A DNA stretch of 39,080 nucleotides. It comes from Ruminococcus sp. (GTDB taxonomy: Bacteria; Bacillota; Clostridia; Oscillospirales; Ruminococcaceae). The stretch's first letter is position 1, and each line of letters begins with the position of its first letter. Position numbers and translations under genes: made by a program. Below the pieces are notes generated by a model. The model was not told where the DNA came from and did not search any database. It saw only the letters and a list, made by a program, of their open reading frames with translations. The stretch lies in assembly GCA_017519145.1 (NCBI GenBank), contig JAFWTA010000029.1, positions 1 through 39,080 on the forward strand, read 5' to 3'. Positions 21,720 to 39,080 of this stretch are shown here, one piece after another.

Positions 21720-21795
21720 GCTGATGTGGCACAGTCGGTAGCGCAACGCCTTGGTAAGGCGTAGGTCGTCGGTTCAAGTCCGATCATCAGCTCCA
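21720..21795 (+). tRNA. tRNA-Thr(GGT)
   Basis: A 76-base tRNA with encoded CCA. GCTGATG pairs with CATCAGC in the acceptor stem, and the anticodon loop TTGGTAA gives GGT (Thr). Conjugative-element genes begin about 320 bases downstream, so its 3' end may be an attachment site, though no second core copy is present in the window. Confidence 0.95.
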
Positions 21796-22118: not shown

Positions 22119-23114
22119 CTGGCATGGAAGAAAAAGCTCACGCCGCAGCAGAAAGCCGAATATAAGGCTGAAAAGCGTGAGGAAATGCAGAATTTATTCA
22201 AAAAGATCGATGACGGAGTTAAGGCTGTTTTCGAGTCTGATAGCTACAAGAAATGTCTGCGATATATGAGCAAGTTCACAAACTATTCCGCAGGCAATTG
22301 TATTCTTATTATGCTCCAGAAGCCTGATGCAAGCCTTGTGGCGGCATTCGGCAAGTGGAAGGAGCTCGGCAGGACTATCAACAAAGGAGAAAAAGGCATA
22401 GCCATACTTGCCCCTATGTCCTTCAAGAACATAGAACTTAATGAGCAGCCTGTAAAGGACAGCAGTGGTAATCAGGTATACAATGCTGACGGCTCAGAGA
22501 AAAAGGAAAAGGTCGAGGTCGAGCAAACATCGATTGGCTTTAAAAAGGTATATGTGTTTGACGTATCCCAGACCAGTGGCGAACCGATACCCGAATACGT
22601 CCATGAGCTGAATGAGACTGTCGAGGACGAACAGGTTGAAGCTGTTATAAATGCTGTCCACGATATAACAGGTCTGCCCGTGGATTTCGAGAATATAAAA
22701 AGCGGTGCAAAGGGATATTACAGCTACGGCGAGCAGCGTATAGTGATACAGGAGAATCTCAGCGGCGCACAAGCCATTAAGACCGCCATTCACGAATGTG
22801 CTCACGCCCTGCTGCACGATCCAGACAAAAAGCTCCCAACGGCGAACACTTCCCGAAGCGATAAGGAAGTCCAAGCCGAATCAGTGGCATATATAGTGGC
22901 TTCGAGGTACGGCATAGATACAAGCGACTACAGCTTCCCATATATAGCCTCATGGAGTCATGGAAAGCAGCTTGAACAGCTCAACCGCTTCCTTAATGAG
23001 ATACAGGAGACTGCGAGAACGATATGTGATGCCATAGATACTGAGCTTCAGGTTTTATCCGAAAAACAAACAGAGGAGCAGACCGAGGACGAGTGCTTCG
23101 GCCTTGCTATGTAA
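22119..23114 (+). CDS. ArdC-type antirestriction protein with zincin metallopeptidase motif
   Basis: Conjugative ArdC proteins protect incoming DNA and bind single strands. In the known plasmid case the protein is moved into the recipient. The preferred start is the CTG at 22119, eight bases after AGGAGGT. It gives 331 residues opening with A-W-K-K-K-L-T; the first in-frame ATG (22185) has no usable site. The N-terminal ArdC domain (about 25-155) contains N-Y-S-A-G-N and G-E-K-G-I-A-I. The C-terminal zincin domain carries H-E-C-A-H at about 225-229 and a downstream Glu in Q-A-E-S-V-A-Y. The protein ends in an acidic stretch plus F-G-L-A-M. A TATAAT at 22095-22100 without a good -35 may be its promoter. 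It is the first gene of a long packed operon. Confidence 0.88.
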   Translation: MAWKKKLTPQQKAEYKAEKREEMQNLFKKIDDGVKAVFESDSYKKCLRYMSKFTNYSAGNCILIMLQKPDASLVAAFGKWKELGRTINKGEKGIAILAPMSFKNIELNEQPVKDSSGNQVYNADGSEKKEKVEVEQTSIGFKKVYVFDVSQTSGEPIPEYVHELNETVEDEQVEAVINAVHDITGLPVDFENIKSGAKGYYSYGEQRIVIQENLSGAQAIKTAIHECAHALLHDPDKKLPTANTSRSDKEVQAESVAYIVASRYGIDTSDYSFPYIASWSHGKQLEQLNRFLNEIQETARTICDAIDTELQVLSEKQTEEQTEDECFGLAM

Positions 23115-23126
23115 GGAGGAATATTT

Positions 23127-23828
23127 TTGATAGGCATTCTTATAAAAAACAATGGAAGAACGCTATTCACAGGTCTGCCAAAGGAAACCGAAAAACTTGA
23201 AAAACAGCTTGCAGGTATCGGTCTGAACATTCCTTTGAAGGCGATAAACCTCTCGAACCATAATGATATAGGTTATGAGGTGCAAATATTTGCACAGGAT
23301 AAGCTTGATAATGAAATAGCTTCAAGAATAATTCTGCATGATAATATCGGACAGCTAAATGACGTACTGACATATGTCTCCAAAAGAAATGCCGATGAAA
23401 TGTATGATAGAATTTGTGAAAGCAGTGCTGAAACTATCTCAGAGCTGTATAGAGAGTTAATTGCTCCGCCAAAAATAGATAATAATCACGCAATAGAGCT
23501 TCAAACAGTTAAAGCTCCCATTACAGAAAGCGAAAAAAGGCTTCTCGACACCATATCGAGATTAGCTGACAGGATAGCCACATTCGCACATCTCGGTTAT
23601 AAGGATTTTACTATTGATGATGTTCTGAAAGAAATTGACTGTGATTTTGAGGATATAAAGGGAATGATACGCGACTCAGCGGCTGAATTGCTGAGAGCAA
23701 AGCCTGATATATCATCAGTAGAGGTGAGCAGTCTTGACACGCCCTTTCAGCCTGAGCTGACCGTTACAACAGAAGAAACACAGGATACGACCGCTGATAA
23801 TGAAGAAATCGGCGGTCTTTCTTTATGA
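23127..23828 (+). CDS. Conjugative-element protein of unknown function
   Basis: The TTG start at 23127 follows AAGGAGG by 7 bases, 12 bases after ardC. The 233-residue product is not recognised. Residues 1-110 form an alpha/beta part (L-I-K-N-N-G-R-T-L-F-T-G-L-P). Residues about 135-195 look like a helical bundle with S-E-K-R-L-L-D-T-I-S-R-L-A-D-R, and an acidic, Thr-rich tail ends in I-G-G-L-S-L. That ending resembles the tail found on five other proteins of this element. Position and tail suggest a role linked to ArdC, perhaps in establishment after transfer; this is inference. Confidence 0.75.
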   Translation: MIGILIKNNGRTLFTGLPKETEKLEKQLAGIGLNIPLKAINLSNHNDIGYEVQIFAQDKLDNEIASRIILHDNIGQLNDVLTYVSKRNADEMYDRICESSAETISELYRELIAPPKIDNNHAIELQTVKAPITESEKRLLDTISRLADRIATFAHLGYKDFTIDDVLKEIDCDFEDIKGMIRDSAAELLRAKPDISSVEVSSLDTPFQPELTVTTEETQDTTADNEEIGGLSL

Positions 23829-23841
23829 TCGGAGGTCAACT

Positions 23842-24294
23842 ATGAAATTTGTAAAACTAAAGCTCTTTTCACCGATAATGGTAAAGGGAGAAGCACCATA
23901 CGAAAATCCGTGGGACGGCGGCGACGATTACCGCATCCTTATCGAGCGAGAAAAGAAGAAATGCAGGAATGAAATATATGTAAGTTCTTATAATGCACTT
24001 ACTCCTGTTTCTCTTCCGCAGTTCTTTGAACGCCGCATTTATTCCGCAGTCCCTGCTGTAGAGGAAAAGGACGGACGTCTTATGCTTTGCCTGAACTGCG
24101 AGAGTTACCGTACACTTTCGGAATCAGAGATCGACGAACTTTGCGGTTGGTGGGAGAATACAGTTGTTGAAGCAAACGAGAGACTTCGCAAAAAGCAGAT
24201 AAAAACCAAGAAACTCGGCAGGATAATCATATATCTGTGGTTTATGAACGGGTGGGCTATAGAGCCCATATTTCCTGCCATGCAAAGGAGCTGA
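23842..24294 (+). CDS. Conjugative-element protein of unknown function
   Basis: The start at 23842 has GGAGGT 6 bases upstream; the open frame from 23800 overlaps the previous gene. The 150-residue product opens with M-K-F-V-K-L-K-L-F-S-P. It contains G-E-A-P-Y-E-N-P-W-D-G-G-D-D-Y near residues 17-31 and ends in a basic helix with a hydrophobic stretch I-I-I-Y-L-W-F-M-N-G-W (about 131-141). I cannot assign a function. Similar small proteins sit next to ArdC genes in Firmicute elements, as far as the arrangement suggests. Confidence 0.7.
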   Translation: MKFVKLKLFSPIMVKGEAPYENPWDGGDDYRILIEREKKKCRNEIYVSSYNALTPVSLPQFFERRIYSAVPAVEEKDGRLMLCLNCESYRTLSESEIDELCGWWENTVVEANERLRKKQIKTKKLGRIIIYLWFMNGWAIEPIFPAMQRS

Positions 24295-24298
24295 TATT

Positions 24299-24568
24299 AT
24301 GAGAATACCAAGCAGAAATGAAGTTGAAAGCTATCGCAGCCGTTATCCTGCAGGAACAAAAATATGCTGCGACAATATGTCAGAAGATCCAAGACCTGTA
24401 CCGCCCGGTACAACTGGAACTGTGATAGGCGTTGATGATATGTGCAGCATTTTGGTTAGGTGGGATAACGGTCAAGGACTTTCCCTCGTTCCCGGAGTTG
24501 ACAGCTTTCATGTCATATCTCAGGAAGAAAGCCAGTCAGAAGCTCATGACATGGGTATGCAGTTATGA
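24299..24568 (+). CDS. DUF4314 protein
   Basis: The 89-residue protein shows the DUF4314 pattern: Y-P-A-G-T-K-I-C-C-D-N-M, P-V-P-P-G-T-T-G-T-V-I-G-V-D-D, then I-L-V-R-W-D-N-G-Q-G-L-S-L-V-P-G-V-D. It is a small SH3-like beta fold common in conjugative elements, of unknown function. AAAGGAG lies 8 bases before the ATG. It ends in an acidic stretch plus M-G-M-Q-L, and its stop overlaps the next start (ATGA). Confidence 0.85.
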   Translation: MRIPSRNEVESYRSRYPAGTKICCDNMSEDPRPVPPGTTGTVIGVDDMCSILVRWDNGQGLSLVPGVDSFHVISQEESQSEAHDMGMQL

Positions 24569-24912
24569 AAGTAAACGCTGCAGAGGAAAGCTTCGAGCTT
24601 ATGGAGCTTTTCGGACAGACAGTCCTTTTCACAAACATGAGAGTTGATCGCAGTACCGTTCCCGAAGGCCTTTACGTTTACGATGTAAGGGACGAGGACT
24701 GTACAGGTGAGATATGTGAGATAAAGCCGTCTGTAATGGTCAACCACTGGGGAACGATTATCTGCAAAGAGCCTTTTGAGATGGACGAAGTCTGGCACAG
24801 CAAATTCGTTGATAAGGGCGATTATTGGTATCTCGGAGATACTGCAAAGCTCGATGAATTCATAAATACGGACTATTCTGAGGAACAGTCCGAGGGAATG
24901 GAGATGACATAA
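24565..24912 (+). CDS. LPD28-like small protein
   Basis: This 115-residue protein resembles the LPD28 domain found inside large polyvalent proteins of phages and conjugative elements: L-F-T-N-M-R-V-D-R-S-T-V-P-E-G-L-Y-V-Y-D-V-R near residues 21-42 and V-N-H-W-G-T-I-I near 59-66. Here it stands alone. It has no Shine-Dalgarno site of its own; the 4-base overlap with the DUF4314 gene implies coupled translation. It ends in S-E-E-Q-S-E-G-M-E-M-T, again the shared tail type. The role is unknown. Confidence 0.8.
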   Translation: MKVNAAEESFELMELFGQTVLFTNMRVDRSTVPEGLYVYDVRDEDCTGEICEIKPSVMVNHWGTIICKEPFEMDEVWHSKFVDKGDYWYLGDTAKLDEFINTDYSEEQSEGMEMT

Positions 24913-25482
24913 ATGGCGATAGAAAAGATAACAACAGCGCAGCTCCGAACTATGAATGACAAAGAAGGACTTGTTATTCAAGGCTGCGGCGGCGACCTGC
25001 AGGAATGGGTAGACGGACTCAACGAATCGCTTAATGAGGATGGTATACTGCTGAACGGCAGTCGTTTTGAAAGCGGATATGTTTTCAAAAATGACGGCGT
25101 TACCTGTGTTTACTTCCCATTTGACAGCGTGAACTGTGATATAGGAAAAATTGCGGCATGGCGGATAAAAACACATAGCCTGTTCTGTGGTACATGGTTC
25201 ACAGATTATGTCAATAACCGCCTCGGTGGGTTTGCCGAGGAAGTACAGAAGAAAAAGCCGCCTTGTCCACTTGAAAATGAGGACGGTAATATCTTTAACG
25301 TTATGGGACTTGCCGCAAAAGCTCTCCGCAGGGCAGGTATGTCTGAAGAAGCAAAAGAAATGTGCGAAAAGGTTACTCATAGCGGAGACTATTATCAGGC
25401 TCTTGGCGTGATAATGGAATACGTTGACGTTAGTCCTGAAAATAGCGAGGACGAGGAATTCGGCATGGAGATGTCAAACTAA
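24913..25482 (+). CDS. Conjugative-element protein of unknown function
   Basis: The 189-residue protein begins directly after the previous stop. Visible parts are an N-terminal helix-rich segment (T-A-Q-L-R-T-M-N-D-K-E-G-L-V-I-Q-G-C-G-G-D, about 8-28), a beta part with G-V-T-C-V-Y-F-P-F (about 58-66) and W-R-I-K-T-H-S-L-F-C-G-T-W-F near 77-90, then a helical C-terminal part. It is Cys-rich (seven) without an obvious metal site. It ends S-E-D-E-E-F-G-M-E-M-S-N, one of the clearest copies of the shared acidic tail. I do not recognise a function. The 145-base gap that follows shows nothing beyond a short GC hairpin. Confidence 0.75.
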   Translation: MAIEKITTAQLRTMNDKEGLVIQGCGGDLQEWVDGLNESLNEDGILLNGSRFESGYVFKNDGVTCVYFPFDSVNCDIGKIAAWRIKTHSLFCGTWFTDYVNNRLGGFAEEVQKKKPPCPLENEDGNIFNVMGLAAKALRRAGMSEEAKEMCEKVTHSGDYYQALGVIMEYVDVSPENSEDEEFGMEMSN

Positions 25483-25627
25483 ACCTATCCCAGCGGCTGA
25501 AAAGCTGCTGTTAATATATATATTTCAAAAACAGCGACGGCTCGGCAGAAATACTGTCAATCTCGGAGCAATAAAGGGGGAATGAAATATGGATACGTCC
25601 TGATAACCTTTGAGGGAAGGAGGTCGT

Positions 25628-25825
25628 ATGCAGACACGCAAAAGATACGAAAAAGCAAGTGTTACACTTAATGGAACTGTACCGTCAATGCTGAAAAGAG
25701 CAAAAACGGTGCTTTCCTGCAAGCAGTACAGCGAGCTGTGTTTCGCCGTCAATGAGGCGGCAGACTATACTACAAAGAAAGGAATGATATCAGCCTGTTT
25801 GCAGGCGAAGAAGAATAATACTTAA
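25628..25825 (+). CDS. Small basic protein of unknown function
   Basis: The 66-residue, Lys-rich product starts at 25628 with AAGGAGG 3 bases upstream. It contains V-T-L-N-G-T-V-P-S-M-L-K-R-A-K-T-V-L-S-C-K-Q-Y (about 12-34). It is probably a small DNA- or RNA-associated protein of the element, judged only by charge and position. A terminator-like hairpin follows at once. Confidence 0.6.
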   Translation: MQTRKRYEKASVTLNGTVPSMLKRAKTVLSCKQYSELCFAVNEAADYTTKKGMISACLQAKKNNT

Positions 25826-25869
25826 AGCCGCTTGTCGGGAGCAGAAATGTTCTATGCAGGCGGCTTTTT
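25824..25869 (+). terminator. Terminator-like hairpin between the small gene and dam
   Basis: AAAGCCGCTTG (25824-25834) pairs with CAGGCGGCTTT (25857-25867, one G-U), followed by T. It overlaps the last codon and may split the operon before the methylase. Confidence 0.65.
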
Positions 25870-25904
25870 CTGTTTCCGACGCTTTAGCGGCGGAAAGGAG
25901 GCGT

Positions 25905-26738
25905 ATGAACAGTTTCATGTCATGGGTGGGAGGTAAGAAATCTCTCCGAGACAAGATAATAATACGTTTTCCGCTTAACTATGGGCGGTATATAGAAGTT
26001 TTCGGCGGTGCAGGCTGGGTGCTTTTTCATAAAACACCTGAGAAATTTGAGGTTTTCAACGATGCCAACAGTAATCTTGTAAACCTTTATCGCTGTGTAC
26101 GCAGAAACGCCAGAAAGCTCATATACAAGCTCATGTTTATGATAAATGCCCGTGATGATTTTCGCTGTATCGTGCAGCAGCGCAGGAGAGGTCTTTTCGC
26201 CCGATTCCGTGACTATGACAGAGCCGCGAAATTCTATTACCTTATTCAGTACAGCTATGGTCATAAAACAGACCAATACTGCTGCCGTCCGGTTTCAATG
26301 TGGAAGAAATTTCCCCTTATTGAAAGAGCCGCAGAAAGGCTTCAGTCTGTTGCTATCGAGAACAGGGACTTTGAGGAACTCATAAAGCTCTATGACCGAC
26401 CTGACAGCTTCTTCTACTGCGATCCGCCGTATTACGATACGGAGAGCTTCTATAAAGATGTGGACTTCAAAAGAGAGGATCACATTCGCCTGAGAAATAC
26501 CCTGCTCGAATGTGAGGGCAAGTTCCTTGTATCATACAATGACTGTCCTGAGATAAGGGAGCTGTGGGATATCCCCGGTATATACATTGAGGAAGTTATC
26601 AGACCGAATAATCTTGCGCTCAGGTATGAAAGCGGAGCTGAATATCATGAGGTGTTTATCAGCAATTACGATACGTCCGAAAGGCGTAATTTAAACCGTC
26701 AGTTGTCATTTCTTGACGATGACGAGGAAGGATACTAA
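25905..26738 (+). CDS. DNA adenine methylase (Dam/D12 class), solitary
   Basis: This 277-residue enzyme should transfer methyl groups from S-adenosylmethionine to adenine N6. Order of motifs: M-S-W-V-G-G-K-K (5-12) for cofactor binding, Y-I-E-V-F-G-G-A-G (29-37) and the catalytic D-P-P-Y (173-176). No restriction enzyme gene is next to it, so it is an orphan methylase, probably protecting the element's DNA or regulating it. The start at 25905 lies only 3 bases after AAAGGAGG; the ATG at 25917 is an alternative. The C-terminus is acidic (D-D-D-E-E-G-Y). The recognition sequence cannot be read from the protein. Confidence 0.92.
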   Translation: MNSFMSWVGGKKSLRDKIIIRFPLNYGRYIEVFGGAGWVLFHKTPEKFEVFNDANSNLVNLYRCVRRNARKLIYKLMFMINARDDFRCIVQQRRRGLFARFRDYDRAAKFYYLIQYSYGHKTDQYCCRPVSMWKKFPLIERAAERLQSVAIENRDFEELIKLYDRPDSFFYCDPPYYDTESFYKDVDFKREDHIRLRNTLLECEGKFLVSYNDCPEIRELWDIPGIYIEEVIRPNNLALRYESGAEYHEVFISNYDTSERRNLNRQLSFLDDDEEGY

Positions 26739-26740
26739 TA

Positions 26741-26950
26741 ATGAAAAAGATAATTCACACTATCGGCTTTGTTGAAGATAACGATGATATTGTTATCATG
26801 GGCATTATACACGAAGCCAATACAGCAAATGTCATACGTCTTGTTCTCAGCGAGGAAGATGTAACAGTACAGCAGCTTGAGGGAAGAACGGCTATTCCCG
26901 AAATATCCCCCGATTTCATAAGCAGTATATTAAAGGGCGATGCTTCATGA
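26741..26950 (+). CDS. Small protein of unknown function
   Basis: The 69-residue product starts 2 bases after dam with GAAGGA 8 bases before the ATG. It alternates short beta strands (I-I-H-T-I-G-F-V, D-I-V-I-M-G-I-I, V-I-R-L-V-L) and ends in a helix. No family is recognised. Its stop overlaps the next start (ATGA), implying translational coupling to the DUF3849/YodL protein. Confidence 0.7.
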   Translation: MKKIIHTIGFVEDNDDIVIMGIIHEANTANVIRLVLSEEDVTVQQLEGRTAIPEISPDFISSILKGDAS

Positions 26951-28344
26951 GCTTTGAGTTTCTGTACAAACACAGCAGAGCCGATGCCGTAGAAATGGAC
27001 GAGCTTGAAAGGTGGAAGTTAAGCTATAAAGCCAACTGCGAGTGCAAGGAAGCTATCGAAAAGGCTATAAGGGAGCATTTCGACGGTATGTACCTTGACA
27101 GGGAATGCGTCAATGAGGTATTTTCCGAGTACGGTTATGACCGTACAATGTGGGTACTTGCGGCAACTATCTGCTGTAAAGACTATGACGGACGTTTCTC
27201 AAATTCCAATAAGGAATGGGCAAAAGGAATAATAACCTCAAATATTCCCACAGATGAAATGCGAAGATACGCTGTAGACAGTCACCCTGCTGTACTTGAT
27301 GGCTTCACATCAGAAGTGCGGAAGCAGTATAAGGCTCTCGGACTGCTCGATAACAAAAAATGCCTATCAGATGATAAGGAATACGCAGAAAAGCTCCTTA
27401 TTCTCAAACCGACTACACTCAAAGATGAGTTCCGCAGACCGTTCTTTCAGTATTTCTATGCACAGAGCGGCTTTGGCTGTTATCCTGATAAGCTGGGCGG
27501 TAAGGTATTCGGCAGATTTCTCGCCGACGGCGAAAACGGACAGTTCCGCCGCAGCGACTTCTTAGGAGTTGCTGATCCGGAGAAGCTGCCGCAATGGGCG
27601 CAGAAAAGGCTTGAACAGCTTACTGCTCCGAAAATGCGGATAAGAGTATTCCAGATAGATGACAGCCTTGACTATAACAAGCATAAGTTCATGAGCTATG
27701 ACCATGTTATGAAAAAAGGCGGAGTTGACTCACTCATCTATCGCCAGGTATATGGAGGGATAGTAAACTGTTCGGATATTGAATCAGTTTTTGCTCTATG
27801 TAATACTAACCCTCCTCCCGGATACTGCGGTCATTCACTGTCAGTATCGGATATTGTGGAAATAGAGGACGGCGATAATTTTGGCTTTTATTACTGCGAC
27901 AGCATCGGATTTAAGAAAGTTCAATTTGATATTGAGCAGACCGATCACATGGAAATGCTGCACGTTCTCATTATCGAAAACGGGAAAGATCCATATGAAG
28001 CAGAGATACGCGATGAGCTGAAAGCAAAGCAGAGCGTGGTCGGCGGTCTTATCGAGCCTGTATATTTTTCCGACATTAATGAAGCTCTCATTTACTGTGA
28101 CGAGGAATTTCTGCTCAAAAACTATGAGCCTAACCGCAGAGTCGGAGATACGATAATCCACGGTACTTTTATGGTCATAGGCAACGGAGTAAACTCTCAT
28201 GGCGAAATGACTGATTTTTCGCTTACAGATGATCAGATCGAAGATTTCTCTGAAATGTTCAAATATCCGCTCATATACATGACAAAGGAAGAGCTTGCAG
28301 AGGAACAGACAGAAGAACCTGACGAGAGCATTTCTCAGACTTAG
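26947..28344 (+). CDS. DUF3849 / YodL-like / DUF3846 fusion protein
   Basis: The 465-residue protein joins modules known from polyvalent proteins of conjugative elements. A DUF3849-like part (about 16-100) has E-R-W-K-L-S-Y-K-A-N and A-I-R-E-H-F-D-G-M, ending K-D-Y-D-G-R-F-S. A middle region of unclear type spans about 110-230. A YodL-like part (about 235-335) has I-R-V-F-Q-I-D-D-S and Y-R-Q-V-Y-G-G, ending G-H-S-L-S-V-S-D-I-V. A DUF3846-like part (about 340-430) has L-H-V-L-I-I-E-N-G-K-D-P-Y and G-T-F-M-V-I-G. Such proteins are thought to act early in the recipient cell. No catalytic site is evident. It starts by coupled translation. Confidence 0.82.
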   Translation: MSFEFLYKHSRADAVEMDELERWKLSYKANCECKEAIEKAIREHFDGMYLDRECVNEVFSEYGYDRTMWVLAATICCKDYDGRFSNSNKEWAKGIITSNIPTDEMRRYAVDSHPAVLDGFTSEVRKQYKALGLLDNKKCLSDDKEYAEKLLILKPTTLKDEFRRPFFQYFYAQSGFGCYPDKLGGKVFGRFLADGENGQFRRSDFLGVADPEKLPQWAQKRLEQLTAPKMRIRVFQIDDSLDYNKHKFMSYDHVMKKGGVDSLIYRQVYGGIVNCSDIESVFALCNTNPPPGYCGHSLSVSDIVEIEDGDNFGFYYCDSIGFKKVQFDIEQTDHMEMLHVLIIENGKDPYEAEIRDELKAKQSVVGGLIEPVYFSDINEALIYCDEEFLLKNYEPNRRVGDTIIHGTFMVIGNGVNSHGEMTDFSLTDDQIEDFSEMFKYPLIYMTKEELAEEQTEEPDESISQT

Positions 28345-28357
28345 ACAGGAGGCTGAT

Positions 28358-28495
28358 ATGAAAGAAGAAATATTTATACCGTCTCCCCTTGCAGAGCAGC
28401 TTAAAAAGGCTGCTGAGGAACAGGGGCTGACAGCAGACGAGATCGCTGAAAGAGCAATAAGAAATTTTATTAACAGGAGTGATAGTAATGGCTGA
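28358..28495 (+). CDS. Very small ribbon-helix-helix-like protein
   Basis: The 45-residue product starts at 28358 with AGGAGG 7 bases upstream. After a short strand (E-E-I-F-I-P-S) it has two helices (L-A-E-Q-L-K-K-A-A-E-E-Q-G-L-T and A-D-E-I-A-E-R-A-I-R-N-F-I). This fits a minimal CopG/Arc-type ribbon-helix-helix DNA-binding protein. It overlaps the next, larger ribbon-helix-helix gene by 8 bases and may form a regulatory pair with it. Confidence 0.7.
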   Translation: MKEEIFIPSPLAEQLKKAAEEQGLTADEIAERAIRNFINRSDSNG

Positions 28496-29066
28496 GGAAA
28501 AGAAAGGTATCACCGTAAAGATAGATGCCGATTTACACGCAGAAATTCGTGAGTTCATTGAAGCCAACGGAATGACAATGGCTGATTTCGTTTCAAAGGC
28601 GTTATACAATGAACTGCACCCGAAGATTCAGCCGCAGGAGGTGAAAAATATGGGTCCCACAAGAACAATGGCGTTCCAGATGCCGGAAGATATGTTCCAG
28701 AGGCTGAAAGACTATCTGCACCGTCACGGCATTACGCAGAAGGAGTTCGTTCTCGGTCTCGTAGAAGCTGAGATCAGGAGAGATGAGGAGCTTATCAATG
28801 CTCAGAATGCTGCAAAGCTCGATGAAGCAGCCGAGGACGAAGAACCTGACTATGAAGAATCAGAGGGCGAGAGCGAGGAACTCAACGATGAGGAATCCGA
28901 GGACGAAGATGAAGAGCTCGACAATGAAGAATCAGAGGACGAGGACGAAGAACTCGACGATGAGGAATCAGAGGACGAGAGTGAAGAACTCGGCAATGAA
29001 GAATCCGAGGGCGAGGACGAAGATCTCAGCGAAGAACAGGACGAGGATTTTTCAATGGCAATGTAA
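28488..29066 (+). CDS. Tandem ribbon-helix-helix protein with acidic repeat tail
   Basis: The start at 28488 is 8 bases after AGGAG. The 192-residue protein has two ribbon-helix-helix units: about 7-47 (G-I-T-V-K-I-D-A-D-L-H-A-E-I) and about 57-100 (T-R-T-M-A-F-Q-M-P-E-D-M). Together they could form a full DNA-binding unit from one chain. From about residue 115 on it is almost only Asp, Glu and Ser, in repeats of about 12 residues (E-E-S-E-D-E-D-E-E-L-D-N and variants). It ends D-E-D-F-S-M-A-M, the shared tail. The acidic part may mimic DNA or keep the protein soluble and exportable. It is probably an autoregulator of the element operon. Confidence 0.82.
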   Translation: MAEEKKGITVKIDADLHAEIREFIEANGMTMADFVSKALYNELHPKIQPQEVKNMGPTRTMAFQMPEDMFQRLKDYLHRHGITQKEFVLGLVEAEIRRDEELINAQNAAKLDEAAEDEEPDYEESEGESEELNDEESEDEDEELDNEESEDEDEELDDEESEDESEELGNEESEGEDEDLSEEQDEDFSMAM

Positions 29067-29212
29067 GCTGTAATAACAGCGAAATACCGCATTTGTCCCA
29101 CAGGTCAAAAAACAGCGGCTCGATTTGGTGGTTAGGTCGATTTTTCGGCAGAATCATAGACATTCCTGAATATTTGTGGTATGGTGATGAAAAACACAAA
29201 GGGGGTATGGCT

Positions 29213-29962
29213 ATGAAAGAAATAACCGCCATTTTAGCACTTTTAATGCTGCTTACAGGCTGTGGACAAATAACGGATATACGCGAAAGTCCGTCCACCC
29301 AAAACGAGACTTCTACAGTATCGGCAGAAGAAAAAATGATAAACTCAACTTCTGTCACCACTATTACTGCAACAGTAACAACAACAGCAACCGTACAGCC
29401 AACAACTGCGGTGAAACAGGAAACAACAGTAACCGAAACAATGTCTGTCAGAACTGCAGAAGCGGCTGTGTCGTGCGAAGAGGTGACGAGTACCGATAAT
29501 ACCACCAAAGCCACAGAACCGCCGCAAACGGCAACGTCAGCGGCGACAGTAACGATACCCGTTACAACTGCACAGCAGGCAGCTCCGCCGATAGCCGTAA
29601 CAGAGCCGATAACCGAGCCAAAGCTTCTTCTTCCTAATGACGGAACTGACTACGGCAAGGCTAAAGCTGTGTATGAATATATGAGGCAGAATGGAAACGG
29701 TACTTGCGTTAATCACGCTTGCATGACCTATAAGCTATGCTGTGATAACGGGCTGCAATGCTGCCTTGCGTGGACGGACGCAGGTATGTACGGTCACGTT
29801 GCAAATATCGTGAATGTTGACGGTATATGGTATGTTCTTGATACTGAGGGCGGATATTTCCTCGACTACAATTACTGCTTTACCGAGGTCGTTGATATTG
29901 ACGGCAATCATATTACAGACAGCCGTATCATCAGCGATATGAGCTATGATGAACTGCATTAA
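29213..29962 (+). CDS. Lipoprotein with Thr-rich linker and transglutaminase-like domain
   Basis: The start at 29213 is 7 bases after the GGGGG site. The 249-residue protein has a lipoprotein signal ending L-T-G-C (about 14-17), then a long Thr/Val/Ala/Pro-rich linker (about 30-140). The C-terminal domain (about 145-249) has the Cys-His-Asp layout of transglutaminase-like enzymes: G-T-C-V-N-H-A-C-M-T-Y near 165-175, then G-H-V-A-N-I-V near 192-198 and W-Y-V-L-D-T-E near 204-210. It may act as a cysteine peptidase or crosslinker on surface proteins. It lies next to the large adhesin. The 146-base gap before it contains no gene I can support. Confidence 0.8.
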   Translation: MKEITAILALLMLLTGCGQITDIRESPSTQNETSTVSAEEKMINSTSVTTITATVTTTATVQPTTAVKQETTVTETMSVRTAEAAVSCEEVTSTDNTTKATEPPQTATSAATVTIPVTTAQQAAPPIAVTEPITEPKLLLPNDGTDYGKAKAVYEYMRQNGNGTCVNHACMTYKLCCDNGLQCCLAWTDAGMYGHVANIVNVDGIWYVLDTEGGYFLDYNYCFTEVVDIDGNHITDSRIISDMSYDELH

Positions 29963-29981
29963 TATACATAAGGAGTAAAAT

Positions 29982-32900
29982 ATGATCAATTTTAAAAATA
30001 GAATAAAGAAGATCGGCGCAGGGATAATGGCAAGTCTCTGCGCTGTTTCATTGTTCAGCACTTCAATCGGCGGAACTCTTTCCGCGGGTGCTGCAATGAC
30101 AACTGAAAATACAGCCTTCCCGACAGCAGATGAGGTCATCGCAGAAGCTGCAACTCTGCTCGGCTCTCCCTACGGCTGGGGATATAAAGGCTATACAGGA
30201 GTTTACTATCAGGACAGCTATAGTCCGCTCGATCTCGACTATGTACGGAATCAGGGCGTTGACTGCTCGGGACTCCTCTACTATACGCTCACCCACCTCG
30301 GATATTCCACAAACGGATTTTCGTGGAATAATCCTGTGCCTGTGGATACTCCACACTGGCTGAGTGTCAATGATAACTGCACTATCACTTACAACGGCAT
30401 TACCTCAAAAATAGACGTGGAGAAGTCCAATATCCCATATACGGAGCGTCCCTATTGGGAATGTGCAGACGGCTCGACCATTTCCGCAGGCTCTATGGTA
30501 ATAGCTCAGAATCCCTACGGCGAAGATCACTCTTGGATATATATGGGCGAGTTTGACAGCAGAAATGACGTTATCGCCTACCTTGAAAGTATTGGGGTTA
30601 ACAGTGCATATATCAGCAGCAGAACAGTCGGTGACGGAAACGGCGATGGCGGCACTCACTGGCGTATCGAATCCAACGGCTCGGAGGGCTGCGTTATCAA
30701 TAACCGTACAGACGGAAAAAGCTCTGCTGCGCTGAATATGACTGCGTTCCGTGTTACTCAGAATGACGTTAAGTTCACCATTACAAAGGTTCTGAGCACC
30801 GACAACAGCGTTAAGATAAGCGGCGTAAGCAGTATAGACGGTTCAAAGGCAGTATACGGCGTATATACTGATAAAGACTGTAAACATAAGGTCGGAGAGA
30901 TAACCATAGGAACTGACGGAACAGGCTCGATAAAGCTGCCCAACAAGCAGTATTATGTCAAGGAGATATCCGCACCGAAAGGCTATGACCTTTCCCCCGA
31001 TGTTGTGGCTCTGAAAGCAAACGGCAACGTCAATGTTGAGGAAGATGTGACAAGCGGTAAGATAACAATAAATAAGACTGCCGAGGACGGAGTTATTGCT
31101 GACCGCGAGTTCCAGCTCACATGGACTGACGGCGGCAGAAAACATACCAAGAACGCCAAGACAAATTCAAGCGGCGTTGCCGTTTTTGATGGACTGCACG
31201 TTTATGATTTCAGCACCAAAGGTGCGATAAACTATACTGTTTCCGAAGTCAATACCGACTCGAAATATGTAACGCCAAAGTCACAGGACGTAACGTTCAC
31301 AAGCGGAAATGCCGACCTTACAGTCGGAGTAAAGTTTGAGAATCGCCTCAAGAAGTTCAAAGCAGAAGTAAAAAAGACCGACAGCGAGAATAGCACTGCA
31401 CAGGGCAATGCAACTCTATCAGGTGCAACTTACGGACTTTATCGTGACGGCGAAAGAATAGCCACATATACAACGGACGAAAATGGTCACTTCATTACTG
31501 ACGAGTTCATCTGCGGCAATTACACTCTTCAGGAGCTTACACCTTCACAGGGCTACCAGCTCAATGATACCATTTATAAGGTCGGCGCAGAGCCTCAGAA
31601 TTACAAAGTTGAAGTGACCCCAATTTCCCTCGGCGTTACCGAGGACGTTATAAAGGGAAGGATCGCTCTCATAAAGCACAGCGATGACGGTACAACAGGT
31701 ATCGAGACTCCCGAAAGCGATGCAGAATTTGAGATATTCCTCAAGAGCGCAGGCAGCTTCAATAACGCAAAGGAAACTGAGCGTGACTATCTCACTACAG
31801 ACGAAAATGGCTTTGCTCAGACAAAGGAGCTTCCATACGGCACGTATACCGTTCATCAGGTCACAGGCTGGAAAAATACTGAGTTTGTGGAGGACTTCGA
31901 TGTTATTATTGACGAAAACGGCAAGACATATCAGTATATTCTCAATGACGCGGTTATCTCCGCAAATATAAAAATAACTAAAAAGGACGCTGAGACAGGC
32001 AAGGTAATTCCAGTTTCTGGCGTTGGCTTCAAGATATGGAGCGTTGACCGCGGCGAATACATTTCACAGACCATTAACTACCCCGAAGAAACAACTCTCG
32101 ATACGTTCTATACCGATGAGAACGGCACATTAATGCTCCCGAAAGAGATTGCCTACGGTGAGTATGAGCTCCATGAGATGAAAGCTCCCACAGGATATTT
32201 CCTCGATAATGAGCCTGTTCCTTTCACAGTTGACGGCTCTGAAAAAACTATCGAGGTCGAGAAATATGATACTCCGCAGAAAGGAAAAATATCTATTTCC
32301 AAGCGCGGCGATGTTTTCAAGAGCGTGACTGCTGCGGACGATAAGTATACTCCCGTTTTTGAGGAAAGCGGTCTCAGCGGAGCTGAATTTGAGGTAAGAG
32401 CCGCTGAGGACATCTATACCGCAGACGGCACTCTCAGAGCAACCAGCGGCGAAGTAGTTGCCTATCTTATCACAGACACAAACGGCTATGCTGTTACAGG
32501 AGAACTGTACCTCGGCAAGTATACTGTTACCGAGAAAAAAGCTCCTGTGGGATATGTGCTTAACAGCGAAGAAAAGCTCGTTGAAATTACCTATGCAGGA
32601 CAGGAAGTCGCAGTCTGCGATGCAGTAAACAGCAGTTTCATCAACGATTATCAGGGCGTTGATATCCACCTTGAAAAGTTCATGGAGCATGATGAGAAGT
32701 TCGGTATCGGCGATAAGGACGAGTACAAGAATGTGACATTCGGACTGTTCGCTGCGGAAGATATTACTGCTGCAGATAGTACTGTTATCCCCGAAAACGG
32801 CTTGATATCAACTGTAACTCTTGGAGAGGACATGACTGCACACTTTGAGAAAAAGCTGCCGTTCTCTCGCTATTATGTACAGGAGATCGCAACCGATGAG

Positions 32901-33791
32901 AGCTATATGCTTAACGGCGAGAAATATCTTGTGAATTTCGAGTACATGGGACAGGAGCAGACCATAGTTGACATAGACTGCGGCACCTTTTTGAATAACC
33001 TCAAGCGCGGCAGTGTATCGGGCAAAAAGGTCAATGAGAAGAACGAACCTCTCGAAAAGGCTGTATTCGGACTTTTTGCAACAGTTACCACCGAGTTTAC
33101 CGCTGAAAATGCATTGCTTACAACTGAGTCTGACAAGGACGGAAAGTTCGGCTTCACTGACATTCCCCACGGCGAATATATCGTTAAGGAAATAGCTGCT
33201 CCCACAGGATATATTTTGTCGGACAAGCAGTATGAAGTCAACATTTCTGAGGACGGAGATGTTGTGGAGATAACCGCCGAAAACCGTCCTGTTTCTGTTT
33301 CCATAAGCAAAACGGATATTTACGGAAAGGAACTGACGGGAGCGAAAATGCAGCTAATAGACGTAGAAGGCAAGGTCATTGACGAGTGGACTTCAGGTGA
33401 TGAGGCTCACATTATTTCAAATATTCCCTACGGCACATATACGCTCAAGGAGATTGCTGCGCCTGACGGCTATGTTATCGCTACCGATATACAGTTCACG
33501 ATTGATGAAAATGGCAGCGTTACCGTTGACGGCGTTAAGGCTAACGCTTACAATTCAGACGGAGTACCCTGCATAACAATGGTCGATAAGGCTGTTGATA
33601 AGCCTACTGCTCCACCGCCTACAGGTGATGCAGGAAGAAATCCGCTGGGACTTGCAATGATAATTGTTGGGCTTTGCGGCGTTTTCTATGTATCCTACAA
33701 GTACAGAAAAATGACAAAGGGAAAAGATATGCCTGATAACAAGTATTCCGAGCTTTGTCCAGACTTTGTTGAGGGCTCAAAAAATGAATAA
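29982..33791 (+). CDS. Large surface protein: NlpC/P60 domain, SpaA repeats, PPTGD sorting signal
   Basis: The 1269-residue protein has a signal peptide (about 1-38). An NlpC/P60-type hydrolase domain follows (about 45-235), with catalytic Cys95 in V-D-C-S-G and His183 in E-D-H-S-W. Then come about nine SpaA/Cna-B-like domains, recognisable by eight endings of the type Y-x-V-x-E-x-x-A-P-x-G-Y-x-L. Such domains often form internal isopeptide bonds. The C-terminus has P-P-T-G-D (1212-1216), a membrane segment and K-Y-R-K, followed by an unusually long 25-residue cytoplasmic end. It is probably a wall-anchored adhesin that aids mating contact, with peptidoglycan-cleaving activity at the tip. AAGGAG precedes the start. 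The sortase gene overlaps its end. Confidence 0.92.
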   Translation: MINFKNRIKKIGAGIMASLCAVSLFSTSIGGTLSAGAAMTTENTAFPTADEVIAEAATLLGSPYGWGYKGYTGVYYQDSYSPLDLDYVRNQGVDCSGLLYYTLTHLGYSTNGFSWNNPVPVDTPHWLSVNDNCTITYNGITSKIDVEKSNIPYTERPYWECADGSTISAGSMVIAQNPYGEDHSWIYMGEFDSRNDVIAYLESIGVNSAYISSRTVGDGNGDGGTHWRIESNGSEGCVINNRTDGKSSAALNMTAFRVTQNDVKFTITKVLSTDNSVKISGVSSIDGSKAVYGVYTDKDCKHKVGEITIGTDGTGSIKLPNKQYYVKEISAPKGYDLSPDVVALKANGNVNVEEDVTSGKITINKTAEDGVIADREFQLTWTDGGRKHTKNAKTNSSGVAVFDGLHVYDFSTKGAINYTVSEVNTDSKYVTPKSQDVTFTSGNADLTVGVKFENRLKKFKAEVKKTDSENSTAQGNATLSGATYGLYRDGERIATYTTDENGHFITDEFICGNYTLQELTPSQGYQLNDTIYKVGAEPQNYKVEVTPISLGVTEDVIKGRIALIKHSDDGTTGIETPESDAEFEIFLKSAGSFNNAKETERDYLTTDENGFAQTKELPYGTYTVHQVTGWKNTEFVEDFDVIIDENGKTYQYILNDAVISANIKITKKDAETGKVIPVSGVGFKIWSVDRGEYISQTINYPEETTLDTFYTDENGTLMLPKEIAYGEYELHEMKAPTGYFLDNEPVPFTVDGSEKTIEVEKYDTPQKGKISISKRGDVFKSVTAADDKYTPVFEESGLSGAEFEVRAAEDIYTADGTLRATSGEVVAYLITDTNGYAVTGELYLGKYTVTEKKAPVGYVLNSEEKLVEITYAGQEVAVCDAVNSSFINDYQGVDIHLEKFMEHDEKFGIGDKDEYKNVTFGLFAAEDITAADSTVIPENGLISTVTLGEDMTAHFEKKLPFSRYYVQEIATDESYMLNGEKYLVNFEYMGQEQTIVDIDCGTFLNNLKRGSVSGKKVNEKNEPLEKAVFGLFATVTTEFTAENALLTTESDKDGKFGFTDIPHGEYIVKEIAAPTGYILSDKQYEVNISEDGDVVEITAENRPVSVSISKTDIYGKELTGAKMQLIDVEGKVIDEWTSGDEAHIISNIPYGTYTLKEIAAPDGYVIATDIQFTIDENGSVTVDGVKANAYNSDGVPCITMVDKAVDKPTAPPPTGDAGRNPLGLAMIIVGLCGVFYVSYKYRKMTKGKDMPDNKYSELCPDFVEGSKNE

Positions 33792-34626
33792 GAAGAATAT
33801 ACTTCGCATAGCGGCGGCTGTTTCAGCCGCCCTCCTCTTAGGAGGCTTCTATGTCTATTTCAAGGACGATATTGCACAGGATAAGGCTGAGAACGATCTG
33901 CTCCCGTTTAAACCGATAATGGTTTCACAGGGAACTCTCGACGAGATAACCGATGACCTTATGGAGACAACTGCGGCAGACACAACAGCGGTAAACGTCA
34001 GATATACAACCGCAAATGAAGCTCCTGTTACTGCATCGGATACTATCCCTGACGAGGTGCGCCATAGTCTTATGGAGTCGGCACAGTCGCTGAATGAAGC
34101 CTATCCCGATGTTATCGGTTGGCTGTACATACCGAATACGAACATATCCTATCCTGTTACTCAGGGCAGAGATAACGAATATTATCTGTCCCACGCCTAT
34201 GACGGCAGCAGCCTCAAAGCAGGAACTATCTTCCTTGACTGCCGCTGCGAGAACAGGTTTATGAATCCTGTGAATATCCTTTATGGTCACAGCATGAAAA
34301 ACGGTACGATGTTTGCAGGAGTGCTTAACTTCGCAGACAGCAGCTACTTTGAAAGCCACAGATACGGCTGGCTGGCTACGCCCGAAACCGTATACCGCAT
34401 AGACTTTTTCTCATGCGCCAAGACCGACTGCAACGATGAGCTGTATGACGGCAATACTCCTATATCGGAGTGGATACCGCATATATGCGAAAAATCGGTA
34501 GTGCTGAAAGAAACAGAGTACGCTGACAATGACAGGTTCATATCCCTGTCAACGTGCAGCTATGAATTTAAAAATGCAAGGACTGTCCTCACGGGCAGAC
34601 TTGTTGAAATGACTGGAGGTCGATAA
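33784..34626 (+). CDS. Class B sortase
   Basis: The 280-residue membrane-anchored transpeptidase has a basic N-terminus and one membrane segment (about 8-26), a low-complexity stem (about 45-90) and the sortase barrel. His169 lies in Y-G-H-S-M, Cys258 in L-S-T-C-S and Arg266 in N-A-R-T-V-L-T-G. The L-S-T-C-S-Y-E-F context and a helix-rich insertion before the Cys fit class B. It overlaps the adhesin gene by 8 bases, with GAGGG 9 bases before its ATG, so the adhesin with its PPTGD motif is the likely substrate. Confidence 0.92.
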   Translation: MNKKNILRIAAAVSAALLLGGFYVYFKDDIAQDKAENDLLPFKPIMVSQGTLDEITDDLMETTAADTTAVNVRYTTANEAPVTASDTIPDEVRHSLMESAQSLNEAYPDVIGWLYIPNTNISYPVTQGRDNEYYLSHAYDGSSLKAGTIFLDCRCENRFMNPVNILYGHSMKNGTMFAGVLNFADSSYFESHRYGWLATPETVYRIDFFSCAKTDCNDELYDGNTPISEWIPHICEKSVVLKETEYADNDRFISLSTCSYEFKNARTVLTGRLVEMTGGR

Positions 34627-37955: not shown

Positions 37956-37991
37956 CACTACATAAAAAATATATTTATGGAGAAAACAAGA

Positions 37992-39080
37992 ATGCCATAC
38001 ATTGCATTTACAGAAGAACAAAAGCAGACCGCCAACAACGTTGAATTAGCAGAATTCCTGCGTATGCGCGGCGAAAAACTTGAACGTGCAGGGCGCGAGT
38101 ACAAGCTCATATATACCGACGGCGGCGGTAAGCATGACAGCATAACCATGTCAGGCAACAGATGGTTCGACCATAAGGCTCAGATAGGCGGCGGAGCTAT
38201 AAAGTTCATGCAGTATTTCTACGGTATGAACTTCGTAGATGCAGTTCACAGCTTGCTTGGATATACGGTTGAACCACAGCAGCACAGTCCTCCGCATAAA
38301 GCGGAGACAGCAGAAAAGAAACAGGAATTCAAACTCCCCGAAGTCAACACTGATATGCACAGAGTGTACGCTTACCTCATAAAACAGCGGCATATAGCTC
38401 CTGAGATAATCACTCATTTTGCAAAGGCTCATACTCTCTATGAGGATAAAGAGCATCACAATGTTGTGTTCGTAGGATTGGACGAGAACGGTGTTCCAAG
38501 ACAGGCAAGCAAACGCTCCGCTACAACTTACGGAAACAGCTTCAGGATTACTGTAGGCGGCTCTGACACCAGATACAGCTTCGGTCATTTCGGCACTTCA
38601 AACAGACTGTATGTCTTTGAAGCTCCCATTGATATGCTAAGTTTCATAACGCTGTATCCCGATAACTGGCAGGAGCACTCATATATAACTCTGAACGGCG
38701 TATATGAGCATCCGCTGATAGGTGCGCTTGAAACACATGATAATTTACAGCAGATATGCTTTTGTACCGATAATGATGAGGGCGGTATCGATGGATATGA
38801 GCGCCTCAGAGATATCATTATGGAACAAGGATACATGGATATACATAGATGCGCTCCCGAATACAAGGACTGGAACGAGCAGCTCAAGGCGTTGAACGGC
38901 GAGGACGCGCTCCCTGCTGTTCCTCACTTCCGAAAGAATAAGTATTATGAGATAGCCGAAAGCCTCAGAGAGCTTACCTTTAACCCTTACGGCTTTATGA
39001 ATGAACTGCGAAAGGCGTATAGGAACGGCGACATTATTTTTATGACCGAGCTTGCAATAACAGGCTCGGTCTTCTATTTG
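37992..39080 (+). CDS. DUF3991 / Toprim primase-like protein (cut by window end)
   Basis: The open frame runs 363 codons without a stop to the right edge. GGAG lies 9 bases before the ATG. The N-terminal part (about 15-92) matches DUF3991, with W-F-D-H-K-A-Q-I-G-G-G-A-I-K-F and F-V-D-A-V-H-S-L-L-G. A Toprim domain follows (about 195-285) with L-Y-V-F-E-A-P-I-D-M-L-S-F, the metal-binding Glu motif, and C-F-C-T-D-N-D-E-G-G, the D-x-D-like site. Such proteins are primase- or nuclease-like and often lead into relaxase/helicase or polyvalent proteins of conjugative elements. GC content returns to the element's usual level here. Confidence 0.85.
   Translation, partial: MPYIAFTEEQKQTANNVELAEFLRMRGEKLERAGREYKLIYTDGGGKHDSITMSGNRWFDHKAQIGGGAIKFMQYFYGMNFVDAVHSLLGYTVEPQQHSPPHKAETAEKKQEFKLPEVNTDMHRVYAYLIKQRHIAPEIITHFAKAHTLYEDKEHHNVVFVGLDENGVPRQASKRSATTYGNSFRITVGGSDTRYSFGHFGTSNRLYVFEAPIDMLSFITLYPDNWQEHSYITLNGVYEHPLIGALETHDNLQQICFCTDNDEGGIDGYERLRDIIMEQGYMDIHRCAPEYKDWNEQLKALNGEDALPAVPHFRKNKYYEIAESLRELTFNPYGFMNELRKAYRNGDIIFMTELAITGSVFYL

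Follow-up and report, generated by a model that had tools for sequence, protein, structure and literature searches.

A candidate C-terminal sorting signal, specific for element type, on unrelated antirestriction and establishment proteins of a Ruminococcus conjugative element

Six genes on the plus strand of the window, by which we mean the whole 39,080-nucleotide stretch analysed, encode proteins with a common type of C-terminus, in which an acidic linker, some 10-20 residues long, leads into 3-6 final residues that are rich in Met, Gly and Leu and often end in Met or Leu. The ArdC protein (22119..23114; ArdcN and Peptidase_M78), whose ORF starts with a CTG at 22119 and has its first listed ATG at 22185, carries this tail at 23046-23111 (EEQTEDECFGLAM, ending EDECFGLAM). 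It is followed by a protein at 23127..23828 (hereafter the 23127 protein; tail 23760-23825, ending DNEEIGGLSL), whose counterpart in the related element G081 has the C-terminus DEEIGGLSL, a DUF4314 protein (24299..24568; PF14192, 2.3e-26; tail 24518-24565, ending EAHDMGMQL) and an LPD28 protein (24565..24912; PF18843, 1.8e-28; tail 24868-24909, ending SEEQSEGMEMT). In the protein at 24913..25482 (the 24913 protein) the core extends to EYVDV and is followed by the tail at 25432-25479 (SPENSEDEEFGMEMSN), with EDEEFGMEMSN as its final residues; neither this protein nor the 23127 protein matches a Pfam family over the cut-off. The sixth, a ribbon-helix-helix (RHH)-type protein (28488..29066), has a long and extremely acidic tail (28830-29063) that closes on DEDFSMAM. 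All six endings, as listed in the initial annotation, were found in the sequence at their positions, and its claim that the recognisable domains belong to different families holds for ArdcN, DUF4314 and LPD28, which score over the Pfam cut-off. Its name "tandem RHH" stands less firmly: RepB-RCR_reg is the sole Pfam match of that protein, and the RHH label is the annotator's own. Beyond the six, a protein with DUF3849, YodL and DUF3846 domains (26947..28344, plus strand) bears a weaker tail (28300-28341, ending EEPDESISQT), and a DUF3991/TOPRIM protein (37977..39080, plus strand) runs off the contig end, so that its tail lies outside the sequence; its counterpart in G081 ends in ETEAVLAFG.

We formalized the tail as [GS][LM]x[LM] lying no more than 3 residues from the end, preceded by at least 5 D/E in 18 residues. 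This pattern is present in 6 of the 18 listed ORFs of the element and in none of 307 ORFs of at least 80 aa sampled from the rest of the genome (357,747 bases; 1/307 if the acidic condition is dropped), so that the tail does not occur at the same rate in the sampled proteins outside the element. The associated Fisher probability of 1.2e-8 is partly circular, because the rule was derived from these same six tails, and the independent evidence comes from other genomes. In a set of 80 related loci, 262 of 1515 ORFs match a strict tail rule, and 20 sequence clusters contain at least two strict-tail members, including ArdA-like, DUF4314, LPD28/Api92, YodL, SpoVG and RHH proteins. The tails are therefore spread over unrelated families, and most orthologues in related elements retain them, which disposes of the concern that they might be lacking there. 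The RHH cluster is tailed in 22 of 23 members and the cluster of the DUF3849/YodL protein in 20 of 53, and known or likely recipient-acting functions among the bearers are represented by ArdC, ArdA, LPD28 and HipA-like proteins. Among other families in these loci, strict tails were found on 0/51 C5 methylases, 0/10 VirB4 proteins and 0/4 coupling proteins; 3 of 60 D12 methylases match, which counts against a cargo tag. Of 142 dereplicated tails, chosen by a rule that required hydrophobic residues and not Met specifically, about 50% close with Met and 14% with Leu, and positions -3 to -5 are enriched in Met. Tail rules A2 and A3 postdate inspection of the related-locus tails.

Comparison of the same families in different contexts, counted as distinct ends, amounts to a natural experiment and gives the strongest evidence of the analysis: it revealed that the tail depends on the type of element and is absent from phage copies save for one GGACT end. 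In the 24913 family the acidic-Met tail is present on 46 of 70 ends from genome loci without a PF03432 relaxase mark, on 0/6 from PF03432 loci, all six of which are ER or DR, and on 0/15 from phage loci. In DUF4314 proteins it is present on 38/48 ends from unmarked genome loci, on 0/44 from phages and on 0/29 from other viral loci; the copy in the sole PF03432 locus has a basic end, and phage copies end where the core ends. For GGACT proteins the counts are 7/12 in unmarked loci, 0/4 in PF03432 loci (4/4 ending in ER or DR) and 1/64 in phages. More generally, several of the same domains carry in PF03432-relaxase elements a basic stretch ending in -E-R, -A-R or -R-R. In loci marked as neither PF03432 nor phage, the related rule is failed by 31 rows of the 24913 family: 29 are acidic and either differ in their end letters or have K/R near the end, and two are basic, namely L144, which has no known context, and L206, which is a PF03432 region and was counted as such in the comparison of this family.

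The same division is seen from the relaxase side. From 20 + 20 relaxase regions, L186 (2.8 kb) and L204 (0.5 kb) were removed before counting. The 20 kb that precede each of 19 MobL genes hold 381 ORFs, of which 58 bear the acidic tail and 1 ends in ER or DR, and upstream of 19 PF03432 genes the corresponding figures are 0/224 and 14/224, with chromosomal control stretches giving 1/324 and 0/324; the genomes in this comparison were reached via 24913 homologues, and only a class-level MobL sample is independent of the tailed family. In that sample 13 of 235 ORFs match over 15 regions, with matches in 6 regions and none in 9; some appear to be chance matches (DEEYMDCSV in L210, L220 and L222), and in L219 two tails were missed by the rule. 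The strict tail is likewise absent from 2 of the 19 MobL regions and from 4 of 7 in a further set. Hence, at the level of sequence the tail is specific for the kind of secretion machine, and MobL is not sufficient for tails, because several MobL regions have none. An -ER end is missing from 13 of the 19 PF03432 regions. Neither of two fully read MobL relaxases carries the tail. A search of plasmids for DUF4314 gave no match, and the complete MobP3 plasmid CP141730.1, which has a related coupling protein, carries no tag, the rule being matched by 1 of 27 proteins read from it, a chance-like ParB. The second, basic code fits Ruminococcus albus 7 plasmid pRUMAL02 (MOBP by PLSDB typing), in which 6 of the 12 proteins read have basic Arg ends.

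As to the machine itself, related tailed elements encode a PF02534 protein, a TraG-like P-loop protein, MobL (PF18555) and also VirB4, so that in these relatives a shared C-terminal feature occurs on unrelated proteins linked to a type IV secretion system (T4SS). A search of the 65-contig assembly from which the window derives found no MobL and no coupling protein of PF02534, and the machine of the window's element is presumed to be like that of G081, where the genes for MobL, the coupling protein and VirB4 come after the TOPRIM gene. The coupling proteins beside MobL have net charges of -2 to +16 (14 rows) versus -23 to -3 (16 rows) beside PF03432, a contrast of one clade with another that includes duplicates (L042/L409 look the same, as do L122/L383 and L128/L384), with links to relaxases assigned by eye and 8 coupling proteins of unsettled relaxase link (-35 to +9) left out.

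We propose that the tail is probably a machine-specific C-terminal sorting signal. In a group of elements with MobL relaxases it would label a set of antirestriction and establishment proteins for export by the T4SS that the element itself encodes. It would most likely be read through binding to the VirD4/TraG-type coupling protein, and the tailed proteins would thereby be directed into the recipient along with the DNA. The initial annotation had suggested a T4SS or coupling-protein signal, and the fact that tail type tracks the conjugation system lends it indirect support, although docking to the relaxosome or to some other partner encoded by the element would fit too. Its premise that plasmid ArdC travels to the recipient does not hold generally, as ardC of R388 has to be expressed in the recipient and is dispensable in the donor, according to the abstract of PMC7213743.

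The compact packing of genes in these elements raises the question of whether the acidic, Gly and Met codons might merely reflect the next gene's Shine-Dalgarno sequence and start codon where these overlap the 3' end. A Shine-Dalgarno-like sequence indeed lies in the last 8 codons of 70 of 254 distinct tails, and GGA accounts for 56% of Gly codons in tails versus 30% in gene bodies; the ribosome-binding site of the next gene shapes part of the tail letters. However, for 84 of the 254 tails the next listed ORF is over 60 nt away, and in such tails Met is still last in 69% of 42 rows. In the window, the Shine-Dalgarno sequences of the genes following ArdC and the 23127 protein sit 3' of the stop codons, and no gene lies close downstream of the RHH gene. 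Nor does packing explain why these domains have basic tails in PF03432 elements and no tail in phages. As sole cause it is thus refuted, and we consider this artefact very improbable, while retaining it as a modifier of tail letters. Basic tails were likewise examined for start-stop overlap: 12 loci chosen for them (255 ORFs listed, duplicates included) yield 58 distinct proteins ending in ER, DR, RR, KR, AR or SR. For 36 of these the next ORF overlaps or is no more than 5 nt away, for 13 it is more than 30 nt away, and the Arg codons vary. A separate candidate, an element-specific "dialect" of tails, was dropped. It had appeared in the initial run (0/1000 permutations) and after dereplication with the last 8 residues (0/2000), the controls being null except for the -16..-9 stretch in the first, non-dereplicated run, and it was lost under Shine-Dalgarno control, with z of 0.7 on exclusion of tails with Shine-Dalgarno-like 4-mers (48 pairs, low power) and 1.4 in tails separated from the next ORF by over 60 nt (27 pairs, low power).

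The remaining alternatives differ in what, if anything, would read the tail. Hydrophobic C-terminal residues are classical features of degrons and docking sites, and a host protease, sliding clamp or other host protein might recognise the tail and confer a short life or a localisation. We give this only a small chance: acidic and basic codes coexist, split by element type, in the isolate genome of Merdimmobilis hominis An559 (L091 and L368) and in one MAG (L362 and L146), which argues against a host factor as reader; the same domains are tail-less in phages, and the clamp motif QLxLF and the Pro-Phe end are each found on 0/6 tails. Marginally less probable still are generic acidic tails that keep DNA-binding proteins off DNA or soluble with no specific reader, a role suited to bearers that bind or mimic DNA (ArdC, ArdA and the RHH protein with its extreme acidity) and at odds with the terminal Met and Leu preferences of the 142 dereplicated tails and with the replacement of the acidic tail by a basic one in PF03432 elements. 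The likeliest of the rivals, though still unlikely, is docking to a different partner encoded by the element, for instance the relaxosome or a scaffold bound to DNA. The tailed proteins would then assemble on the DNA in transfer or cooperate within the donor, and the coupling protein would not read the tail; tails that track element type are compatible with this. Transfer of several maintenance proteins by pED208 required engagement of the relaxosome with TraD (in the part of PMC8406263 that we draw on), and the RHH fold, tailed here, is that of auxiliary relaxosome proteins known in MOBL systems (from sections of PMC5675868). Yet no shared partner beyond the T4SS and relaxase was identified, and GGACT, HipA-like and SpoVG proteins are tailed though without an evident role on DNA.

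Returning to the proposed sorting signal, a close parallel is the Legionella Dot/Icm system, in which, according to part of the text of PMC7251119, many unrelated cargo proteins carry an acidic block, the E-block (EExxE), followed by a hydrophobic extreme C-terminus, as in the terminal residue of RalF, with a basic patch of DotM as proposed E-block reader. The tails combine both signals, having an acidic block and a hydrophobic terminal residue, a resemblance of working rather than of membership: here they belong to a conjugative element of Gram-positive Clostridia with a bacterial recipient, the end is Met/Gly-rich, and the relatives' machine is of the PF02534/VirB4 type. Signals of Agrobacterium VirB/D4 and part of the F conjutome are similarly C-terminal, charge-based and common to unrelated cargo (as far as the relevant portion of PMC11288057 goes); the -ER/-R tails found with PF03432 look like such positive signals, while the window's tails are of opposite charge and not net positive. 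The related tailed elements share their relaxase family (PF18555) with the MOBL systems of the pLS20 family, for which the passages used make no mention of an acidic-Met cargo tag. Polyvalent proteins of conjugative elements and phages, which are held to accompany DNA, also contain LPD28, ArdC and metallopeptidase domains (in sections of PMC5512222), and LPD28, ArdcN, DUF6782/M78, DUF3849 and YodL matches are found in Pfam searches of the window's element; unlike in polyvalent proteins, the domains are here on separate proteins that have the tail in common. The main text of PMC5512222 does not contain the terms "C-terminal tail", "C-terminus" or "DUF4314". An open-access literature search for proteins sent to recipients by Gram-positive conjugative elements, and for their signal, found none. 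The single-stranded DNA-binding protein SSB likewise has an acidic run with a hydrophobic end that serves as a docking peptide, but its last residues are Pro-Phe, which end none of the six tails.

With about even confidence we extend the proposal to Gram-positive conjugative elements at large, which would use a machine-specific C-terminal address code, acidic-Met for one group of MobL machines and basic-Arg for PF03432 machines, for a cohort of up to a dozen establishment proteins per element, the tag being swapped between element types and left off phage copies. If true, such a code would allow the proteins that an element injects along with its DNA to be predicted from sequence. For Clostridia it would yield a list, open to testing, of the antirestriction and establishment proteins injected, assign many LPD and DUF proteins one shared role, and open the specificity of coupling proteins in tailed elements to direct testing.

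The left part of the element lies inside the window, running from its first gene, ArdC (22119), which follows a tRNA-Thr gene (21720-21795) by about 320 bases, to a DUF3991/TOPRIM gene cut at the contig end (39080). The six acidic-Met tails reported in the initial annotation, on ArdC, the proteins starting at 23127 and 24913, DUF4314, LPD28 and the RHH protein, are present exactly as described there. The pattern [GS][LM]x[LM] no more than 3 residues from the end, combined with at least 5 acidic residues in the preceding 18, is found in 6 of the 18 ORFs listed for the element and in 0 of 307 ORFs (357,747 bases) from the rest of the same genome, bearing out the expectation that other proteins would not carry the tail at a like rate. 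ArdC has an apparent CTG start at 22119 after AAGGAGG, with the first ATG listed at 22185. The D12 methylase (25854-26738) is without a tail and ends in NRQLSFLDDDEEGY; near the C-terminus of related methylases QLSFLD or QLTFLE recurs, which resembles a sliding-clamp binding motif. Between the RHH and TOPRIM genes, 29174-34626 holds genes labelled by eye as lipoprotein-like, SpaA-pilin-like and sortase-like.

Neither the MobL relaxase nor a PF02534 coupling protein was found in the 65-contig assembly of the window's genome, and hence the secretion machine of this element has to be deduced from relatives. The closest element found, a complete one on contig C5 of the related genome G081, contains a 24913 counterpart of 92% identity; downstream of its TOPRIM gene it has a PF02534 coupling protein (1.5e-43), a TraG-like P-loop/VirB4 protein and a relaxase of the MobL family (PF18555, 2.9e-30). 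It bears the tail on ArdC, the 130578 protein, DUF4314, LPD28, 24913 and RHH, and weaker forms on YodL (EEPDEGISQI), TOPRIM (ETEAVLAFG) and ArdA (ETEELGACLT); its coupling protein, VirB4, relaxase, D12 methylase and remaining listed proteins are without it. No genes comparable in size to those at 29174-34626 in the window are listed between its RHH and TOPRIM genes. A second element, on contig C4 of genome G047, has 12 tailed proteins including ArdA, HipA-like, SpoVG and LPD28/Api92, and in the order-level relatives G154 and G187 several proteins end in TMGGM or MGGM.

The sharing of tails is wider than was initially seen. We used the best 80 of 234 genome loci from a 24913-family scan and clustered their 1,515 same-strand ORFs after removing the last 18 residues of those longer than 70 aa, so that the clusters are not driven by the tails. 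The strict tail rule selected 262 of the 1,515 ORFs, with at least two members in 20 clusters: 24913 (47/77), DUF4314 (40/47), RHH (22/23), SpoVG (27/34), LPD28/Api92 (19/31), ArdA-like (20/39) and YodL (20/53) proteins are among them. In the same loci it selected 3 of 60 D12 methylases and no C5 methylases (0/51), VirB4 (0/10) or coupling proteins (0/4). Of 142 dereplicated tailed proteins about 50% end in Met and 14% in Leu. Further inward, Met is frequent at positions -3 to -5, Gly is so at -2 and at -6, and from -7 to -17 Glu/Asp predominate.

The same core domains end differently in different types of element, as seen in three families when distinct ends are counted and phage loci are defined by an adjoining terminase or portal. 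1) The 24913 core terminates in a conserved EYV; in PF03432-relaxase loci the family ends in ER/DR (6/6; acidic tail 0/6), in phage loci it stops about 3 residues past the core (acidic tail 0/15), and in the remaining genome loci 46 of 70 follow the strict rule. Among 31 rows that fail a related rule, 29 show an acidic extension with different end letters or K/R close to the end. 2) DUF4314 has the acidic tail in 38 of 48 genome cases, 0 of 44 phage-marked and 0 of 29 other viral loci, and its one case in a PF03432 locus has a basic end. 3) GGACT has the acidic tail in 7 of 12 genome cases, ER/DR in 4 of 4 PF03432 loci, and in phages a single match in 64, due to a core helix. The search of the full-length 24913 protein gave no Pfam family; its C-terminal part also occurs alone, as an approximately 80-aa protein, and near the terminase gene in phages (window 25250-25482; comparison loci L021 119-364, L025 1492-1737 and L161 9995-10183). 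At L144 (1502-2170), a locus without an assignable relaxase type, a 24913-family protein has the basic tail KKRERARRGHENVLRR. Two viral-collection contigs without a terminase mark carry acidic and hydrophobic ends (L282 6001-6474, EEGFQFEFE; L157 9770-10258, DEDEQFGIKME); these could be conjugative elements placed in that collection by error.

Many different proteins of PF03432 elements, presumably Tn1549-like, display a second C-terminal code, a basic stretch followed by -ER, -AR or -RR (L152 454-14660; also loci L122, L128, L141, L201, L245 and L368). In L152 such ends are found on 9 of 29 listed ORFs, including GGACT, DUF3846, DUF4240, SAM synthetase, DUF7768, HipA-like, amidoligase and the PF03432 relaxase. 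On the Ruminococcus albus 7 plasmid pRUMAL02 (L412, 6590-24275), 6 of the 12 proteins read have basic Arg tails, including ArdC/YodL.

With regions picked by their relaxase, the 20-kb stretches preceding 19 MobL genes have the acidic-Met tail on 58 of 381 ORFs (17 of 19 regions) and an ER/DR end on 1 of 381; upstream of 19 PF03432 genes the figures are 0 and 14 of 224, the latter confined to 6 regions, and in chromosomal stretches 1 and 0 of 324. The Fisher tests on these counts take no account of relatedness. A second set of regions, picked to contrast MobL with PF03432 within genomes, gave acidic tails on 4 of 84 ORFs (7 MobL regions, 4 without any) versus 0 of 143 (13 PF03432 regions). Both codes can be found within a single genome, as in the isolate Merdimmobilis hominis An559 (acidic at L091, basic at L368) and in a MAG (acidic at L362, basic at L146). 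MobL occurs in 13 of the 196 genomes of a class-level sample selected independently of the tail; beside 15 MobL matches in it, the tail rule is followed by 13 of 235 ORFs. Clear cases lie in L210-L213 and, judged by eye, in L219. As only part of the MobL regions contain tails, MobL marks the group containing them and does not by itself predict them.

The ribosome-binding site of the next gene shapes some letters of the tails but is not what produces them: of 254 tails, 84 are separated from the next ORF by more than 60 nt, and in 42 dereplicated tails at this distance Met is still final in 69%. Tails of unrelated proteins of one locus at first appeared more alike than expected; this likeness faded once those with Shine-Dalgarno-like sequence were removed, at low power.

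A candidate reader of the tail is the coupling protein, whose net charge is -2 to +16 when linked to MobL (14 rows) and -23 to -3 when linked to PF03432 (16 rows), a few duplicate rows being included and 8 proteins without an assigned relaxase link left out. The Walker motifs flank a block of marked difference, where residues 249-291 of the G081 protein have a charge of +2 versus -8 to -11 in three PF03432-linked examples. From its position this block is expected to be the site of the all-alpha domain, which, as reported in PMC7434980, recognises the cognate relaxosome together with accessory proteins. The contrast would point to the partner, and being one clade against another is suggestive only.

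The anatomy of the acidic tails, an acidic block and then a terminal hydrophobe, corresponds to a combination of two Dot/Icm signals (PMC7251119), and the basic tails of PF03432 elements are similar to known C-terminal type IV secretion signals of positive charge (PMC11288057). Neither tag was found described on Gram-positive conjugative cargo in the portion of the open-access literature covered; because most subscription papers fall outside that search, the evidence that both are novel is weak. The comparisons show, at the level of sequence, a link between tail and secretion machine, from which we infer the transfer of the tailed proteins and the identity of the reader protein. Most likely, the tail is a machine-specific C-terminal signal, a mark by which the proteins bearing it would be co-transferred.
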